Positions 15,137-24,388 of a DNA stretch of 24,897 nucleotides are shown here, piece after piece. Source of the stretch: a virus; IMG/VR virus record IMGVR_UViG_3300040770_000084, positions 1 to 24,897 of that record; one strand, given 5' to 3'. The position numbers and the translations under genes are program-made. Each line of letters begins with the position of its first letter. Within the stretch, counting starts at the first letter, position 1. The notes beneath the pieces are model-generated. The model was not told where the DNA came from, ran no database searches, and worked only from the letters and a program-made list of their open reading frames with translations.

Positions 15137-17491
15137 TTATTTATTGCTTGTTGTTTTTCTTTGTGATAAAGCTTTAGACTTTAACTCTAAATCTCTATTG
15201 TCTTTACTTACAGTATGCGAATCCATTTTTTCTTTTCTATTAGCTTCTCTAAGTTTTAATTGTTCTTCAAACGACTTGTCTTCCATTACGGGCTCGTCAC
15301 TTTCTACATTATTATCCATCATCATTTTTCCATCTAGCATTCTATCAGCAGTATATTTAACACCTTCAAGTTTACTATCTATTTCATAACGTTTAAGCTC
15401 TTCTGTAGCTTGTTGAAGTTCAGCTTGCATTTCTTGTAATTGAACAGCTCTTTCTTGGTCAGCTTGTGCAGTTTGCTCTTGTACCATCTGTTGTACTTTT
15501 TCCATCTTTTCTAGTAATACACTAACTTTAGATGTACTATTAGTAGTATACATTTTACTAACAGCAGAAGCAGAAGCTCCATTTTGTAACATAGAACCAG
15601 CAAAACTTCTCATAGCTTCAATTCCTCTAGTATTACTAGTAGCGTCTTTTACAAATACATTATAACTAGAAGAGGCATGATAATTAGCATCATCAACATT
15701 TAATTCAAATATACCTCTAGAAGAATCACTATAAATATAAGCTTCTTTAATACCATTAATCCAAGCGCCTTTAGATATATCTAATAAACCTTGATAATCT
15801 TTTTCAATCATCTTATCAAAAGAACTTACTAAATCATAAGTAATAATAGCACTTCTTACAATAGCTTGTTCTGTAGTAGCTTTGCCTGCATATTGACTTA
15901 CGTCAGAATATCTTTGAGCGTTCATTCCAATAGCTTCCCAATACTCGTTTTTGGTTTGTACTACTAGATTACTAATTTCAGCAATAATACCGTTTAAAGA
16001 CATATCAATTGATTTAATCATTTGAGAAGCAAAAGCAGCATTAGGAGCAGACTCATCAATCCACAATACAGAAGTAGCATCCATATGATAAGCTTGTTTA
16101 GCTGTACTAATACCTTTAGAACGTGGTACTAATCCGTATGGCATAACAAGGACTTTATCTTTATTTTTGTTTATTAGTTTTTCCATGCTGAACTTTAATA
16201 CATTAATAGTTCTTTGATAAACTAAACCTTCTTTAACAATAGAATTAATTTCTCCTACTCTTGTTCTTGCTATAATACCGTTGTAACAAGATTTTAAATT
16301 ACCTTTAGAATCTACATCAGAACGATCAAAAGGAACTTCACCACATTTAAAGAAATAATCCATTACTTTATAACCTTCTATTTTACAAGTAAACCACTCT
16401 TTAGTTATATTAATATCACCAAGAGTAGGTTGTAATTCATAATCAACAGTTACTTCTTTGTCTTGTTCAATACCAAATTCATCTATATAATTTAAAATGT
16501 ATAAATCTTTGTAAGATGTATATACAACATGAAAAACTTCTATTCCATTAGTATAAGCTGACATTGGTACTTTAGAGTTAACGTAATTATTACCTCCAGA
16601 CATAGCACCGTTATTACCAGTATTTGTATATTGAGCGTTAAACTCTCCATAACCATTATTTACTTCTTGTTGAAAAGCTTTAATTTGTTCTTCTTCAATA
16701 CTGTCTTGTAACATTTCTACAATACTATAAGGGCTCATTATACGACGTCTAATATGAACTTCTGCATCTTCTACAAAAGGACTGCCCGCTTTCATGTTTA
16801 AAACAAACACTTCGTTTCTAGGTACGTGTTCAAATACAACTTCATTATTAATAACGTCTTTATAAGTAACACATCCGCCTGTTACAACATAATCATAAAA
16901 AGCTTCTGTAAGTTTAAAGTCAATATCACAATAAAACCTAATAAAATCAAGAGCCTCTTGCCCTTTTATTAGAGTACTATCATTAAAGCTTGCATTAAAT
17001 TTATTAACTATCTCTTCAAGCTCTGGCATTGGGTTCTCTTCGCTTGGTTGCATTCCTGTTACTTTTTGAAACTCACTAAGAACTTTCTTTTTGTGCCATT
17101 CTTTAATAAGCATATCAAGCGCACTATTACGAGAAATATCATCATTAGGATTTAAGTTAACAACTTCATATTCATGTGATCTTGTACCAAACTCTCCAAT
17201 TAGTAATTTAACAATACCCATAAGGATATTATGATTTTGCAGTTTAGATTTATACATAAAGTCTGAATCTGCACCTGAGTCTTGATTAGTAGAACCAAAT
17301 ATAGCTTTATATTCTTTAAAATCTATAAGTCCTTCTACAGCACTAAACAGTTTATTAATTTCTTCGTATTCTGACTTCCAACCCGAAGAATCTATATAAT
17401 GAACAATAGTTTCTTCTATGTTAGTAAGACCAGTATCACTATCCCTAACTGACTTTTCAGCCATTGTTAACATTTGATTTGGTAATGGCAT
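15137..17491 (-). CDS. Portal protein
   Basis: A 784-residue protein forming the dodecameric DNA gate at the capsid vertex. It lies immediately downstream of TerL (6-base gap) and upstream of the scaffold and capsid. The central region has a portal-like pattern seen in large Bacteroidota phage portals: IGMNAQRYSDVSQYAGKAT followed by TEQAIVRSAIITYDLVSSF and LLDISKGAWINGIKEA. The last 130 residues are a Gln/Glu/Lys-rich coiled coil (VQQMVQEQTAQADQERAVQL) and a charged tail, as in crAss-like and related portals whose C-termini extend into the head. Length is at the large end for portals. Function is inferred from synteny and motif pattern. Confidence 0.82.
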   Translation of the reverse strand: MPLPNQMLTMAEKSVRDSDTGLTNIEETIVHYIDSSGWKSEYEEINKLFSAVEGLIDFKEYKAIFGSTNQDSGADSDFMYKSKLQNHNILMGIVKLLIGEFGTRSHEYEVVNLNPNDDISRNSALDMLIKEWHKKKVLSEFQKVTGMQPSEENPMPELEEIVNKFNASFNDSTLIKGQEALDFIRFYCDIDFKLTEAFYDYVVTGGCVTYKDVINNEVVFEHVPRNEVFVLNMKAGSPFVEDAEVHIRRRIMSPYSIVEMLQDSIEEEQIKAFQQEVNNGYGEFNAQYTNTGNNGAMSGGNNYVNSKVPMSAYTNGIEVFHVVYTSYKDLYILNYIDEFGIEQDKEVTVDYELQPTLGDINITKEWFTCKIEGYKVMDYFFKCGEVPFDRSDVDSKGNLKSCYNGIIARTRVGEINSIVKEGLVYQRTINVLKFSMEKLINKNKDKVLVMPYGLVPRSKGISTAKQAYHMDATSVLWIDESAPNAAFASQMIKSIDMSLNGIIAEISNLVVQTKNEYWEAIGMNAQRYSDVSQYAGKATTEQAIVRSAIITYDLVSSFDKMIEKDYQGLLDISKGAWINGIKEAYIYSDSSRGIFELNVDDANYHASSSYNVFVKDATSNTRGIEAMRSFAGSMLQNGASASAVSKMYTTNSTSKVSVLLEKMEKVQQMVQEQTAQADQERAVQLQEMQAELQQATEELKRYEIDSKLEGVKYTADRMLDGKMMMDNNVESDEPVMEDKSFEEQLKLREANRKEKMDSHTVSKDNRDLELKSKALSQRKTTSNK

Positions 17492-17497
17492 ATTTGT

Positions 17498-19834
17498 TTA
17501 TTTAAAGTAGGAATCTATTTCAATACCTGTTATGTTATTTCGCTCATTATATATACTATCATTACTAACTTCACCAAAAGGATTATTAAAATAATCTTCT
17601 GAATCTGTCCTAGGTCTTTCAGGTACTTGTTGCTTATAAAGAGCTTCTTTAATATCATACATACCAATCAATAAACATGATACCCTATCTGCATTCTTAG
17701 AACCGTCATATTTTAATAACTCTTTCAATATAGGTAAATCGTATATCAAATGCAAATTTAATATCGTATTCCCGTGTATATCTTTGCCCCTCGGACTGAT
17801 TAACCAGTTCTTTAAATACACTATTGCAGTCGATTTTCTTTGCGCGTTTCCACCTATCGAGATGCCGTATTTTCTGCCTAATCCGCCCTTTTGTACTTCT
17901 GCTTGATGTTGAAAGGTGGTTTCAGTTTTTAAGATGCTTAGGTAGCCTAATTTCAAGGCATTAGCAAAAACATCACCTCTATCATTTTCGTATAGTACCT
18001 TACTACCAAAGTATGTAGCACCCATGAACATTTGATGGTCATAGTCAGTAGTATCTTCAGTTCTACCAACATATACAGCAACAATTTTATCTCCTTTAGA
18101 AGGTGTCATGTTATTGGAAGCTTCATATATAATAGTACAAGCTAAAGAGTCTTTACTTGTAAAAGTATCTTTATCTTTAGATATTGCAAATGGGTCAACC
18201 CAAGTGTGATATAAGTTATCAGGAATTAAACCAGTAGAAGGGTCTCTATAAGGCTCATCATATATAACCCAACAACCTCGTGAATCTTCTGATTTAGATA
18301 TAGGATAATTACGTATAGCACTAGCAGTTAAAAGTAACTCATCGTCATCCATAAGAGCACGATCTTTAAAAATAGTTTTAGAGTCTTTAACACTAAATAC
18401 ACCTTCACGTCCTACATTATTTTTACCATTAAGTTTACTAACTCTTTTGTAATGAGCATCAATTAATTGTGCATTAAAGATTGCACTTTTAGCTCTACTA
18501 AAAGCTTGAGAAGGTTTCTTAGGTTCTTCCATTAAATGCGCTGTAATTTTAGCATCATCTTTACCGTACAATGCTAAATCTTTGCGTTCAAATTCAATAG
18601 CTCCTTTTACGTCACTATTACCATGTCTATCAATAAGTCCAGGTTTAGACATAAAACAAGGATGAAAGAAACCACAACATTCATCTACAGACTCGTCGTC
18701 CCAATTGTTTACAAAGCCAAGAAATTTTCTACTCATAACATTATAGAAAAGATCTTCAAAACCAGCCCATGCATTTTCTTCTCCACCACCTGTACCAAAT
18801 ACAATCATAAGACCTGTCATTCTAGTACCATCAGTAAGAGACTTTAAAGTAGCATCAAGCACAGCAGAAAGATTAGCACATTTACCAGCTTCTTCTATAA
18901 GTATTAAATCAGCATCTTTACCTCTAATTTTACCACCATCTTTTCCAAGTATAGCAGTATATATATTAGAGAGATAACCACGTTTAGAAGGGTCGCCTCT
19001 ACGTCTGTAACCAATTTCAATATGTGAAAGCGCATTATGTAATCTACCTTTATCCCAATCTGTATTTTTATTAATATTATCAAGAAAAGATAAAACTTTA
19101 TTCATTGTTCCATCTTCAAATAAAGACGCACTATCATAAGCAGCAACTACAGAAGTACTTTTTCTATACAAGTTAGCTTGATTAGCTACTAGCCAACCAT
19201 TTTTATAAGAGTAACCTTTACGTCTAGCTTTACCTACAACAATATGTCTACCTACTCTTTTAGCAAGTTCTATAGATTTAAAGAAATAATAATCTCCATC
19301 CCAAAAAGAAGGAAACATAGCTTCTTTATTTATAATACCTTGTTCTACTTTTTGTAGTTGTTCTCCGTTAGCAGATAGTAAAGCACCACCCTTAACTTCA
19401 AAGTCTTTAGACGCTTGTATTTTAGAATAATTTAAATATCCATAATGTTCTCCAGTAATATGTATTTGTTGTATTTCATATATACCGTTATCATTTAATT
19501 TAAGTTTACCTGGAAGTATAATACCTTCTTTACATTTTTTCTCTTCTTCATCCCAAAATCTATTGTATTCACGTCTGTCCCATTTAGGGTGTGCTTTAGT
19601 GTAACAACCATGCTTTTGAAAATGCTTTGCAGCAGAAGATGCTTCTGAAGTATTAACAAAAGCTATATCTTCAAAGTCAAACATTTCTAATACAGACTCT
19701 GCATCGTTTTCAGGATTAAGATAAGGAGTAGATATAAAAGGAGTTTTATATACTTCTTGATTAATGTTCATAGTATCTAATGCACTATCAAGACTATGCA
19801 CTAAATCATAAGCAGTAGAATCAAATCTTCTCAT
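17498..19834 (-). CDS. terL: Terminase large subunit (packaging ATPase-nuclease)
   Basis: A 778-residue DNA-packaging motor protein. N-terminal ATPase domain: a deviant Walker A at about 200-212 (VGKARRKGYSYKNG), Walker B at 307-317 (DADLILIEEAG) with the catalytic Glu, and motif III at 346-351 (FGTGGG). C-terminal RNase H-like nuclease: acidic candidates D547 (WVDPF), D618 (YENDRG) and D716 (NADRVSC). It powers translocation through the portal encoded just downstream and cuts genome units. It starts 3 bases after the HAD-like gene, which may couple their translation. Codon use within about residues 625-698 (17740-17960) differs from the rest, with TCG, GCG, CCG and GGG codons and five CG dinucleotides in 17821-17880. 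The frame is intact. No small terminase subunit is recognised nearby. Confidence 0.92.
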   Translation of the reverse strand: MRRFDSTAYDLVHSLDSALDTMNINQEVYKTPFISTPYLNPENDAESVLEMFDFEDIAFVNTSEASSAAKHFQKHGCYTKAHPKWDRREYNRFWDEEEKKCKEGIILPGKLKLNDNGIYEIQQIHITGEHYGYLNYSKIQASKDFEVKGGALLSANGEQLQKVEQGIINKEAMFPSFWDGDYYFFKSIELAKRVGRHIVVGKARRKGYSYKNGWLVANQANLYRKSTSVVAAYDSASLFEDGTMNKVLSFLDNINKNTDWDKGRLHNALSHIEIGYRRRGDPSKRGYLSNIYTAILGKDGGKIRGKDADLILIEEAGKCANLSAVLDATLKSLTDGTRMTGLMIVFGTGGGEENAWAGFEDLFYNVMSRKFLGFVNNWDDESVDECCGFFHPCFMSKPGLIDRHGNSDVKGAIEFERKDLALYGKDDAKITAHLMEEPKKPSQAFSRAKSAIFNAQLIDAHYKRVSKLNGKNNVGREGVFSVKDSKTIFKDRALMDDDELLLTASAIRNYPISKSEDSRGCWVIYDEPYRDPSTGLIPDNLYHTWVDPFAISKDKDTFTSKDSLACTIIYEASNNMTPSKGDKIVAVYVGRTEDTTDYDHQMFMGATYFGSKVLYENDRGDVFANALKLGYLSILKTETTFQHQAEVQKGGLGRKYGISIGGNAQRKSTAIVYLKNWLISPRGKDIHGNTILNLHLIYDLPILKELLKYDGSKNADRVSCLLIGMYDIKEALYKQQVPERPRTDSEDYFNNPFGEVSNDSIYNERNNITGIEIDSYFK

Positions 19835-19837
19835 CTC

Positions 19838-20278
19838 TTATAATATTATAGGTTTAATTGATGAATACATTTGCATATATCTAGCTAAAACTGAAGTAGT
19901 AATAATAAAAGAATAACCAAGTAGAATTTCATGTTCAGCAGCAAGGTTATAAAACATTCCAGGTAAAGGTAAATAATCAAAGTTATTAACATCTGTAGCA
20001 TAATCAAAATTAATACTATTAGTTTCTAGTTTAAATTCTTTTTCAAGAGCCTCTGCAATAGAAGTAAAAAGATTTTCTATAGGATTAGATTCTCTTTTAC
20101 GTACAGGTATGTTAGGATAATTACCAACAAGAAAAACCTTATAATTAAGGTTTACGTGTTTAGCAATTATGTCTTTAATCTCATCTGAAAGTAACCAATC
20201 TTCTCTATGTAAAGGAAAAGCTTGTTTACTCTTTATTTTTATTATGTTAGGAATATCTAAAAATATAGCACTATGCAT
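19838..20278 (-). CDS. HAD/PNK3P-like protein lacking most catalytic residues (predicted pseudo-phosphatase)
   Basis: A 146-residue protein whose layout matches the polynucleotide 3'-phosphatase branch of the HAD superfamily. Motif I is AIFLDIPNI (family FDLDGTL): D8 stays but the second Asp is P10. Next comes FPLHREDWLL, equivalent to the family FP..P.DW..L. Motif II, YKVFLVGNYPNI, replaces YKVVIFTNQ.GI, so the Thr is G52. The motif III Lys of RKP.(P/T)GMW is lost in YLPLPGMF, and the motif IV GD is TT at 127-128 in SFIITTS. The fold is therefore probably kept and hydrolysis lost. It lies 3 bases upstream of TerL, suggesting a role beside packaging, for example binding DNA ends or terminase. 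Family alignment is from memory of PNK3P consensus. Confidence 0.7.
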   Translation of the reverse strand: MHSAIFLDIPNIIKIKSKQAFPLHREDWLLSDEIKDIIAKHVNLNYKVFLVGNYPNIPVRKRESNPIENLFTSIAEALEKEFKLETNSINFDYATDVNNFDYLPLPGMFYNLAAEHEILLGYSFIITTSVLARYMQMYSSIKPIIL

Positions 20279-20299: not shown

Positions 20300-20305
20300 A
20301 TAATA

Positions 20306-20329
20306 AAAGCTCCCTATATAGAGAGCTTT
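20306..20329 (-). terminator. Hairpin terminator overlapping the nuclease stop
   Basis: A 24-base near-palindrome (stem AAAGCTC with GAGCTTT, continuing into CTATATAG with one G-T position) spans the nuclease stop codon at 20314-20316. On the minus strand it is followed by TTATTATT, completing a terminator. It separates the early-late genes upstream from the HAD-TerL operon. The last nuclease codons form one arm. Confidence 0.7.
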
Positions 20330-21285
20330 CTTTTGTTATCTGTAAATAAAGCTATTACTTCGTTTCGTAAATATGGAACTGGGATATATACAGGCTCTTT
20401 GTTAAGAGGATAATGGATGATGGCTAATCCATTAGGTATAAGTACATATCCCCATTGTTCCATCATATAAGCATAAATTGATAATTGTAAACAATATGTA
20501 TGATACTTAGAAGCTGGTATGTGAGCTATAGGTGCATTAAAGGTTTCATCAGTTATAATCCAAGTATCGCTTTTAACCCACTCAGTACCTATTTTTTCTT
20601 TTTTATAATAACCAGGTGTATCATGCATATCAGCGGCATTACTTTTCCAGTCTAAAATAGAAAAATATTTGCCCTTTATAATAGGACAGTCAATAGTACC
20701 TGCTATACCATATCTAGACATATATATTCTTTTCTCTGAAAAAACTGTAGCACCTCTTAATACAAGTGGCTTTAGTTTATTATAAATAAAAGGATATTCA
20801 AGTCTAAGATGAGAAGCATCTAAATCATTTAAAGTAGAAATGTTTTTACCTGCTTTAAAAGGATTACTTTCATAAGTTATAAGATCATTATCTTTAGCAC
20901 CTATATCATTTCTAGTTTTATTAATACCTAATTCAATGCCGTTATGAATTGTATTTCCTCTGATACAAGCTTCAGTAGTTTTAACTACCCATTTAGCTTT
21001 AGTCATTTCTTGAAGTTGTACATAATAACTTTCTTTCATTAAGTCATCAAGTTTAAACTTAACTGTACCTAGTCTAATAGCTTGTTCTTCTGGATAAGGT
21101 TTAAGTTTGTAACCAGCATCTTTTAGACCTGTATACATACTCCAAAAGTTATTGTCAAACTTGTTTTTATATTTATCTAATAATGTAGTTACAGAAGTAT
21201 ATACAAGATTGTTCTCATCAGTATACTTATGATCTGCTTCTGTAAACGTTAAAGTTTTTGCTTGTCCTTGTATAATTGGTGTCAT
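20314..21285 (-). CDS. RecB/Cas4-type PD-(D/E)XK nuclease
   Basis: A 323-residue predicted DNA nuclease. Visible motifs follow the RecB-family order: an N-terminal HKYTDENNLVYTSVTTLL signature typical of phage members; H114 in GNTIHNGIE; D199 in GIAGTIDC; D212 and K214 in ILDWKS (the core DxK); and Q267 with Y271 in YCLQLSIYAYMME. All expected catalytic residues are present, so it should be active with a divalent metal. Only one cysteine (C265) lies near the C-terminal motif and no four-Cys Fe-S cluster is seen, unlike true Cas4. It starts one base after the 222-residue gene. Context beside packaging genes suggests processing of replicated DNA or ends before packaging, or host DNA breakdown. 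Confidence 0.85.
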   Translation of the reverse strand: MTPIIQGQAKTLTFTEADHKYTDENNLVYTSVTTLLDKYKNKFDNNFWSMYTGLKDAGYKLKPYPEEQAIRLGTVKFKLDDLMKESYYVQLQEMTKAKWVVKTTEACIRGNTIHNGIELGINKTRNDIGAKDNDLITYESNPFKAGKNISTLNDLDASHLRLEYPFIYNKLKPLVLRGATVFSEKRIYMSRYGIAGTIDCPIIKGKYFSILDWKSNAADMHDTPGYYKKEKIGTEWVKSDTWIITDETFNAPIAHIPASKYHTYCLQLSIYAYMMEQWGYVLIPNGLAIIHYPLNKEPVYIPVPYLRNEVIALFTDNKRKLSI

Positions 21286-21286
21286 A

Positions 21287-21955
21287 TTAATCTTCTCTAT
21301 TACCTAGCTGTCTATCTCCAACTACGATGTTACTTTCATTATCCTCTTGAGAATACTGTTCTTTTAAATCTTTAATAGTAGTAGTAAGTTTTGGCATACT
21401 GTTTATTAAAGCTATGATATTAGATTGTACTTTATTGATAGCATCTAGTTTACCTAATAATCGTGTTACAATTTCTAATTCTTCTAATGTATATTCTTTA
21501 TTCTTTTTACTAGTAGTTTTAACTGCTTCTTTTAACTCTCCTTTTAAAGTTCTAACAATATCTAATAAATCTTTAGTATCATGTCCTAATTCAAATAGAG
21601 CAGAATCAGCAGAAAAGTATGCACTACCTAAAGAACTTAATTGTTGTAAGTCTTTATATTTTTCGCAAGCTTTTTCAAATACTTTATCTACTTTCCAATT
21701 ATCAGGTAAACCACTAAGCTCTATTATATGTATATGACATATGCCAAGAGGTATGTTATAAAATTCACTACGAGGATCTAAATGATAGTATATATATTTC
21801 ATTTCTCCACAAGCTACTATTTGATGTTTACCTTGTAAATCTTTTTTACTTCCTTTGTCTCTTTTAAAAAGAACTGCAAAGTCATTTATAAGAAGACATT
21901 CTTTTTTGTGTATAACAATGTCTCCATCTTCTTCTCCAATAAATTGTCTAGTCAT
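21287..21955 (-). CDS. Unknown protein upstream of the nuclease (222 aa)
   Basis: A 222-residue soluble protein. The N-terminal half is beta-rich (DGDIVIHKKECLLINDFAVL, ICHIHIIELSGLP); the C-terminal half is helical, about 120-205 (DLLDIVRTLKGELKEAVK, EELEIVTRLLGKLDAINK), followed by a short acidic tail. No enzymatic motif is visible. Its ATG overlaps the stop of the preceding gene by 4 bases (ATGA), and the nuclease gene follows after one base, so the three are almost certainly translated together. It may be a nuclease partner. I do not recognise the family. Confidence 0.7.
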   Translation of the reverse strand: MTRQFIGEEDGDIVIHKKECLLINDFAVLFKRDKGSKKDLQGKHQIVACGEMKYIYYHLDPRSEFYNIPLGICHIHIIELSGLPDNWKVDKVFEKACEKYKDLQQLSSLGSAYFSADSALFELGHDTKDLLDIVRTLKGELKEAVKTTSKKNKEYTLEELEIVTRLLGKLDAINKVQSNIIALINSMPKLTTTIKDLKEQYSQEDNESNIVVGDRQLGNRED

Positions 21956-22392
21956 TTTCTTTTCTTTTTTACTAAAACCTTAAAGTTTAAAAAATGAGGA
22001 GAGTTACTAGGAATAGCTTTAACTTCATCTACAGTTAAAGCTTTAGCATTTACACCTAATCTTTCTAAAGTCTTATAATTAATACTAGAAGATACTCTAG
22101 CTAAATAATGGTAGTATTCTCTATCTTTAGGAGATAGGTTATTATCTTCATCAAGAACAGTCTTAAACAATTCGTTTTTCTCTTTGTTTCTTTCTCTTCT
22201 ATTTGTCCATATAAACTTTAGAAAACCCTTCCAATATATAGGTATATTTCTAGCAAACCCAAAAGCAGTTGCAGTTAGTTGAATATCAATTATATCAACT
22301 ATAGAATTAAAAGATAAATCTTTATTGTATTTGTCTTTCATTCGCTTTTGTACTTCTACTATTATTTCAACTAGAGTGTTATCTATTTGCAT
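21952..22392 (-). CDS. Unknown basic protein (146 aa)
   Basis: A 146-residue protein, basic overall with a KKKRK C-terminus. The N-terminal part is helical (LVEIIVEVQKRMKDKY), followed by a distinctive segment, TATAFGFARNIPIYWKGFLKFIW, that I associate with conserved small phage proteins of unknown role. The charged tail suggests nucleic acid or partner binding. It ends in an ATGA overlap with the 222-residue gene and starts 3 bases after the 173-residue gene. A small terminase role is conceivable by position but no helix-turn-helix is evident, so none is claimed. Confidence 0.65.
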   Translation of the reverse strand: MQIDNTLVEIIVEVQKRMKDKYNKDLSFNSIVDIIDIQLTATAFGFARNIPIYWKGFLKFIWTNRRERNKEKNELFKTVLDEDNNLSPKDREYYHYLARVSSSINYKTLERLGVNAKALTVDEVKAIPSNSPHFLNFKVLVKKKRK

Positions 22393-22395
22393 ATC

Positions 22396-22917
22396 TTATT
22401 TATTACTGCCGTTCATCATTCTAATAATATCGGCTTCTCTTTTCTTAATAGAATCTTTTTCTTCCTGGTCAACTCTAGCTTTAACTACTTCCATAGTCAA
22501 TCCTTCAGCTTTAAGTTTATCTATTAAGTTAAGTTTGTTTTGCAATTCATAAGAATACTCTTGTTGCATAATATTATAAAGAGCTTTAGAGCCATTAGTA
22601 AACCATCCTTGAATAGCTTCTCTTTCTATATTGAAAAGAGATTTTTCAATAGGCTTTAAATAATACATATTATAAAGATAAATAGATTCTCCAATAATAT
22701 TTTTAGATTTATCTATAACATAAACTCTAAATAAATATAAGCTATCATTGTAATTAGCGTACATAGCAGGTCTTTCTTTTTTATCTACAAAAGTAAAATC
22801 AACTTTAAAAGAAAGTTTAGCATTATTAGCTTGCATTTCATTAGTAATAGTTGCAAGTGCAGTAGTCATTATACGTCTGTATATAATAAGGTCTTGAGGT
22901 GTAATATCGGTTGCCAT
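22396..22917 (-). CDS. Unknown protein at the start of the late block (173 aa)
   Basis: A 173-residue protein with a beta-rich core (AKLSFKVDFTFVDKKERP, SLYLFRVYVIDKSKNIIGES) and a helical C-terminus (LQNKLNLIDKLKAEGLT, then charged DQEEKDSIKKREADIIR). No motif identifies a function. It is the first clear gene of the minus-strand block, about 80 bases downstream of a possible 49-codon ORF and 250 bases downstream of a candidate promoter. As operon leader it could be a late regulator or assembly protein; nothing in the sequence decides. Confidence 0.65.
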   Translation of the reverse strand: MATDITPQDLIIYRRIMTTALATITNEMQANNAKLSFKVDFTFVDKKERPAMYANYNDSLYLFRVYVIDKSKNIIGESIYLYNMYYLKPIEKSLFNIEREAIQGWFTNGSKALYNIMQQEYSYELQNKLNLIDKLKAEGLTMEVVKARVDQEEKDSIKKREADIIRMMNGSNK

Positions 22918-23728: not shown

Positions 23729-24388
23729 ATGAATACATTTATTGTAAACTCCGCAGATCTTATTACGAAAACTGGTACTGAAGCTTTCGTAGGTCTAACC
23801 GTTACTATTAACGGAAAGCAAGAACAAATTGCTCGTTCTTGTAAGCAAGCATTGTTGGATATGCATAAGTCAGCTCGTGCTTCTAGCATTCCTGCTGACT
23901 TGTTTGAAAACGGTGTATCTTCTGCTAATCCTCTTATGGTTAATCAATTCCGTAACGCTGTTATTGGTTTGGTTAATAAAGCTGGATTTGCTGAACTAAG
24001 CTTCCATGAAGCTGGAGATACTTACGTAGCTATTGCTGAGTCATCTGCCGTAAGAGCAGGAGAGGCACAAGTTGGCGATACACTTAACTTTCTAAAGAAA
24101 GGTTCTCGTGTTGAAGGCTTCTTAACGTTCCCTCTTACAGACTTGGAGCTTGCTCAACGTGCGTTCTTAGATACTGCTAATCCTTTGCTTATTATGCAAG
24201 GCTTATTTGGTATTACGGCTCCTGCTCCTGTTGTTACTCCTGACCCTATTCGTAATCTTGATGCTGGAAAAAGTATTGAAGACGAAATGGAGAAAGAAGT
24301 GTTCGGCGCTGACTTTGAGTCCCCTGAGGACGAAATAGAAGAGGAAGAAGCTCCTGCTCCTATTATTACGGCTAAGAAAGCGAAATAG
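23729..24388 (+). CDS. Unknown abundant-type protein with acidic C-terminal tail (219 aa)
   Basis: A 219-residue soluble protein and the first clear plus-strand gene. The N-terminal half alternates strands and helices (MNTFIVNSADLITKTGTEAF, VGLTVTINGKQ), the middle has VGDTLNFLKKGSRVEGFLTF, and the end is disordered: Pro/Ala-rich, then acidic (about 185-210: EMEKEVFGADFESPEDEIEE) and a final basic AKKAK. An acidic tail of this sort is common in single-strand DNA binding proteins, but no OB-fold motif can be claimed. Codons GCT, CGT and GTT are favoured, unlike the late genes, suggesting strong expression. A structured leader lies upstream and a terminator downstream. Function unknown; early DNA-metabolism protein is a guess. 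Confidence 0.75.
   Translation: MNTFIVNSADLITKTGTEAFVGLTVTINGKQEQIARSCKQALLDMHKSARASSIPADLFENGVSSANPLMVNQFRNAVIGLVNKAGFAELSFHEAGDTYVAIAESSAVRAGEAQVGDTLNFLKKGSRVEGFLTFPLTDLELAQRAFLDTANPLLIMQGLFGITAPAPVVTPDPIRNLDAGKSIEDEMEKEVFGADFESPEDEIEEEEAPAPIITAKKAK

Follow-up and report, generated by a model that had tools for sequence, protein, structure and literature searches.

A predicted pseudophosphatase of the PNK3P type encoded next to terL in a crAss-like phage

The DNA analyzed here, which we call the window (the whole stretch of 24,897 nucleotides), comes from an uncultured crAss-like phage, as a record of 24.9 kb. This origin (Crassvirales) is recognized by the terminase large subunit (TerL), portal and major capsid proteins, which match PHROG families and are encoded in the conserved crAss-type order. 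A search with TerL returned 148 phage records, those among the matches listed being crAss-like or related Bacteroidota phages, while a search of cellular genomes with terL yielded zero relatives. The locus considered here comprises the following features:

15137..17491, minus strand: portal protein, downstream, same direction (PHROG 6547 at 1.9e-73)
17498..19834, minus strand: terL, terminase large subunit (PHROG 6681 at 5.9e-87; adjacency in relatives)
19838..20278, minus strand: probable PNK3P-fold pseudophosphatase, 146 aa, ATG start (open reading frame, PNK3P homology, AlphaFold model, PNKP match in the PDB)
19895..19900, minus strand: T127-T128, replacing motif IV Gly-Asp (alignment with intact relatives)
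19970..19972, minus strand: L103, replacing motif III Lys (alignment with intact relatives)
20123..20125, minus strand: G52, replacing motif II Thr/Ser (alignment; invariant in the 7 closest sequences)
20249..20257, minus strand: motif I, with nucleophile position D8 kept and general-acid position P10 (lost) (alignment with intact relatives; hhalign to intact phage PNK3P)
20305..20330, minus strand: conserved terminator-like hairpin between the nuclease and PNK3P-like genes (11-bp, U-rich tail, -14 kcal/mol, z -3.45)
20314..21285, minus strand: PD-(D/E)XK nuclease, homologue of crAss PDDEXK_a, conserved upstream neighbor (PHROG 298 exonuclease at 1.8e-24)

The coordinates of the 146-aa open reading frame were reproduced, and its stop codon lies 3 bases from the terL ATG (at 19834). 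The initial annotation had described the gene as 'fused by context' to terL: the adjacency stands, the fusion does not, since these are two separate neighboring genes. The nuclease encoded upstream aligned with crAssphage gp83 at 99.9% (hhalign). Upstream of it lie two conserved small genes (22396-22917 and 21952-22392) with no Pfam match. We rejected the identification of the first of these, a 173-aa gene, as crAss gene 86 on sequence grounds: hhalign against gp86 gave no similarity, and the equivalence is positional only. At 23729-24388 (plus strand), a divergently transcribed gene encodes a protein of 219 aa that contains an acidic segment close to its C-terminus (EDEIEEEEAPAP...) and has no Pfam match, possibly a protein of the ssDNA-binding type.

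When searched alone against Pfam, the window protein matched PNK3P (PF08645) at 19.1 bits (E 0.0012), the Pfam cut-off being 22, and a direct search with it of viral contigs and phage records returned zero relatives. Relatives were reached via TerL matches, by reading the gene upstream of terL, and later by a wider TerL search and a scan of terL neighbors. The closest form clade A (L001-L005 and L012; 62-83% identity), and a sister clade B comprises L006-L011 and L020 (about 24-32%). Against PNK3P, clade A members scored 21-26 bits (L001-L003 and L005 at 22.8-25.7, L004 at 20.8) and clade B members 38-51 bits; a match at E<=0.01 was obtained for 25 of the 25 members of a broader alignment. The clade B profile retrieved mammalian PNKP from the PDB at 4.5e-10, the clade A and clade B profiles align end to end (5e-28), and four family members match PHROG 415 (phage polynucleotide kinases). 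The landmarks pointed out in the initial annotation (FLD, FP..REDW, YKVFLVGN, PGMF and SFII) are all found in the window protein.

An AlphaFold model built from the family alignment (pLDDT 91.2, pTM 0.87) has the HAD Rossmann fold of the PNKP phosphatase type. Comparison of such a model with PNKP had been proposed as a check, and the outcome of no HAD/Rossmann similarity was excluded: the top PDB match by Foldseek was mouse PNKP, as a nucleophile mutant (D170A) with DNA (E 4.8e-6, probability 1.00), VIA-align gave Z 13-15 to PNKP and GmhB over ~138 of the 146 residues and 10.5-11.7 to T4 Pnkp, and several polynucleotide phosphatase/kinases were among the best viral structure matches. The model of an intact relative, L058, reached a pLDDT of 94.7. 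Judged from the Pfam matches and the predicted fold, the window protein is genuinely related, as had been suggested initially, to the PNK3P (polynucleotide 3'-phosphatase) proteins, one branch of the HAD superfamily.

Its resemblance to characterized proteins is nevertheless partial. It shares with the mammalian PNKP domain (PF08645; PDB 3u7g/3zvn/1yj5) the fold and the motif order, and the LITT.SGK / DW / NQ / PG landmarks run across the phage family, but it is a stand-alone 146-aa domain without kinase, encoded in a phage late operon, and it has replacements at the acid and in motifs II, III and IV. T4 Pnkp, a bifunctional enzyme with active kinase and phosphatase, serves in tRNA repair. It likewise contains a HAD 3'-phosphatase domain, as do PHROG 415 proteins, whereas the window protein has neither the kinase domain nor an active phosphatase site. 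GmhB (D,D-heptose bisphosphate phosphatase) and the HisB N-terminal domain belong to the same HAD subgroup (VIA Z 12-15), but they are metabolite phosphatases with intact sites, and the landmarks of the window protein are of the PNK3P type.

HAD phosphatases require a nucleophile, a general acid, a motif III Lys and motif IV acids. In the window protein, the motif I signature DxDxT is reduced to D8, the acid position being occupied by P10 and the Thr being absent; G52 and L103 stand at the motif II Thr/Ser and motif III Lys positions, and T127-T128 at motif IV, neither column of which is acidic. This column mapping, made initially from the one sequence, was reproduced by alignment with catalytically intact relatives, in which the columns do correspond to HAD motifs. 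P10, G52, L103, T127 and the kept D8 are invariant across seven sequences (the window protein and clade A), among which 66 of the 146 positions are invariant; the replacement residues thus look fixed rather than drifting. The window protein is expected to be devoid of phosphatase activity, because the acid, the motif III Lys and the motif IV acids are required in HAD phosphatases. The coordinated loss of catalytic residues with a retained fold, as first proposed, is borne out by the motif comparison and the confident AlphaFold model. Loss of catalysis need not abolish end binding, as judged from the crystallization of PNKP carrying a mutated nucleophile with ssDNA (PDB titles 3u7f, 3u7g and 3u7h). 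However, the motif II and III phosphate contacts are also lost, which makes specific 3'-phosphate recognition unlikely in the window clade.

Elsewhere, the same locus encodes intact proteins. A complete DxD / (T/S)NQ / RKP / GD...D site is present in the terL-linked relatives L058, L059, L062, L064, L076 and L124, and L066 is nearly intact (one motif IV Asp only is missing). These relatives are homologous to the window protein (25-30% identity for those compared) and share its neighborhood, but they carry the full catalytic set. The alignment of homologues that had been called for, regarding conservation of the loss, hence shows replacements that are invariant in clade A together with same-locus relatives that are intact. 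The motif III column is occupied by Lys in every intact member and by a hydrophobic residue (L/M/F/I) in every degenerate member. At the nucleophile column, most degenerate lineages have T, I, S, N, E or M (T or I in clade B), D being retained by the window clade, L061 and L068.

In the TerL tree, the lineages whose PNK3P gene is linked to terL number 28 and group as a single clade (support 100/99), and intact and degenerate members are interleaved. Unordered parsimony gives 4 changes; if regain of the site is impossible, the all-degenerate clades number 6 (43-row tree) or 7 (31-row tree, by-eye count). One loss is clear in the L071/L076 pair (support 95/96 and 91/94 in two TerL trees), and the remaining ones hang on weaker nodes, hence a range: the active site would have been lost about four to seven times, as read from the TerL tree and assuming no gene exchange between phages. 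Note that extremely diverged copies precede terL in L068 (4382-4816), L070 (2992-3453) and L071 (2930-3382): motif I or II is nearly unrecognizable in them and their open reading frames are full-length.

The interpretation we favor is that the window protein derives from a phage 3'-end phosphatase, persists as a conserved pseudophosphatase and has probably been reused for binding. From the relatives, the ancestor would have been a phage 3'-end phosphatase with a complete site, whose gene formed a late cluster with the PD-(D/E)XK nuclease gene and terL. As this lineage has lost the acid, the motif III Lys and the residues of motifs II and IV, Mg-dependent phosphoryl transfer would not be expected from the chemistry of the family. 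Since the fold, the open reading frame, the adjacency to terL and the sequence constraint have been kept, the protein should still have a job, most likely the binding of a DNA or RNA end or of a cluster partner (TerL or the nuclease). It might serve as an adaptor or regulator whose production is coupled to that of TerL. A packaging or end-binding role is plausible, and assigning the protein a specific terminase or DNA-end role is tentative. The protein is acidic (pI 5.8), which is atypical of DNA binders and counts against DNA binding, and the retention of D8 in the window clade, which makes some residual chemistry possible, counts against the pseudophosphatase reading. The most detailed version, in which a DNA-end phosphatase was repeatedly turned into a non-enzymatic packaging accessory and the dead PNK3P binds TerL or DNA ends during packaging, we consider unlikely.

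The position of the gene bears on this point. Adjacency to terL is old and widespread, which favors a functional link: in 24 of 27 loci, intact and degenerate alike, the terL ATG stands at -17 to +10 nt relative to the end of the PNK3P frame (the exceptions are L064, 218 nt; L066, 785 nt; and L070, no ATG found). The terminator that had been noticed upstream of the gene was confirmed as an 11-bp hairpin, which six relatives share and whose stem shows compensatory changes among them; a similar hairpin is found in L006, a clade B member, and is absent from the tested stretch of L010. A generic terminator scan did not list the 20305-20330 hairpin, and a sigma-70 promoter scan gave fewer matches than shuffled sequences, so that no promoter is claimed. 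Given the conserved hairpin upstream, the PNK3P-like gene appears to be part of the terL transcription unit in the window clade. In the outgroup L088, the intact PNK3P gene follows the PD-(D/E)XK nuclease gene and lysis-type genes precede terL; in the outgroups L135, L136, L144, L153 and L187, the intact PNK3P gene precedes the nuclease gene. As adjacency to terL is common to the intact relatives and the outgroups show linkage to the nuclease, adjacency marks a PNK3P/PDDEXK/TerL cluster rather than a specific partner of TerL, and the location of the outgroup PNK3P beside the nuclease instead of terL weakens a terminase-specific role.

A binding protein unrelated to packaging, whose late-cluster position matters only for timing (for instance a decoy or sensor of damaged DNA, of 3'-phosphorylated RNA, or of a host defense or repair factor), is on the unlikely side, yet it survives best among the alternatives. 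The conserved unit is, indeed, the cluster, with a variable order, lysis-type genes separate PNK3P from terL in the outgroup, and unrelated genes fill the slot between nuclease and terL in other crAss-like phages; such a protein would, however, leave unaccounted for the tight coupling to terL in most of the 27 lineages checked and the terminator that parts the gene from the nuclease in the window clade and one sister lineage.

The wider neighborhood is itself varied. The crAss-like structural block includes terL, portal, PDDEXK_a and gene 86 (PMC7886860), and the window has the same order of nuclease, small genes, terL, portal and major capsid protein; the slot is occupied in gut members by lysis-type or small genes. 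An unrelated ~130-aa protein (MKKILLITSSERIAKEF...) is encoded between nuclease and terL in L084 (4032-4433) and L096 (4589-4990), and in L028 (4362-4760, 132 aa) and L031 (3976-5001, 341 aa) an extra gene separates the nuclease from the PNK3P-like gene. Intact PNK3P near the PD-(D/E)XK nuclease and/or TerL recurs in L122-L138, L144, L153, L187, L196 and L201-L203, on contigs of diverse crAss-like and related phages and in more than one gene order, the exception being L130, which is the degenerate L061 copy.

That the gene is decaying, a phosphatase no longer needed whose coding sequence drifts toward loss, is improbable. The four to seven or so separate losses of the active site and the very divergent remnants in L068, L070 and L071 would fit with decay, and constraint in clade A, to which all our selection figures refer, is only moderate: dN/dS over 21 pairs is 0.18-0.65 for the PNK3P-like gene and 0.14-0.29 for TerL, that is, roughly twice the terL value. 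Against decay, however, all 21 pairs give a value below 1, all members have full-length open reading frames, the replaced positions are themselves invariant in clade A, and the predicted fold is complete and confident. Full-length frames and purifying selection (in clade A) are what retention as a selected protein, the view taken at the outset, entails.

Even less probable is an enzyme with changed chemistry, in which Asp8 would act as nucleophile on another substrate, other residues substituting for those lost. Asp8 is invariant in clade A, and some non-phosphatase HAD enzymes lack the second Asp, but here the motif II, III and IV residues are lost too, including all the motif IV Mg acids, and the sister clade has lost the nucleophile, so that no single chemistry fits the family. 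The gene for the small terminase subunit (TerS) usually directly precedes terL, as the PNK3P-like gene does. A TerS function, which would also suit the fact that no TerS is recognized by sequence in crAss-like phages (PMC7886860), is the least probable of all and was rejected because the predicted fold does not fit (a HAD/Rossmann domain over the whole length and not the helix-turn-helix TerS fold); moreover, gene 86, the TerS candidate published for crAss-like phages (PMC7886860), is located upstream of the nuclease, where the window has the uncharacterized gene 22396-22917 with no gp86 similarity, and outgroups have no PNK3P-like protein at this place.

Two further candidates were discarded. 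The protein does not appear to be the regulator of another, active PNK3P encoded by the same phage: each gene-bearing contig checked carries a single PNK3P, and these contigs include four genomes of 81-83 kb with a degenerate copy. Nor was there evidence of a kinase and a ligase making up a tRNA/RNA-repair set, AAA_33 being present only in open frames of more than 5000 codons or below the cut-off and no RNA ligase scoring above the cut-off in ten gene-bearing contigs. Open frames of more than 5000 codons containing an AAA_33 kinase-like stretch were seen at L116 and L117, which lie in the contigs of L002 and L010, both crAss-like genomes.

A term search of PMC7886860 for phosphatase gave no mention, and the Crassvirales review PMC10136315 mentions phosphatase for tail spikes only. 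The open literature searched, which includes both papers and leaves subscription papers mostly outside, holds no description of a terL-linked phosphatase in crAss-like phages, and nothing relevant in it pairs crAss-like phages or terminase with a 3'-phosphatase or PNKP.

What is new is the occurrence of intact relatives beside terL and the repeated loss of the site with the open reading frame and the adjacency to terL kept. To our knowledge, viral pseudoenzymes have mostly come to light as isolated examples. Here, a single gene at a single locus offers intact enzymes and, as read from the TerL tree, several losses with the protein retained, a natural series that lets one ask which roles a repair phosphatase has besides catalysis. 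Packaging and nuclease functions of crAss-like phages are still unexplained (PMC7886860, PMC10136315), and the PNK3P/PD-(D/E)XK/TerL cluster supplies a candidate protein for binding to TerL, the nuclease or DNA ends. If true, a dead PNK3P acting as a packaging accessory would be a kind of terminase accessory without earlier description.
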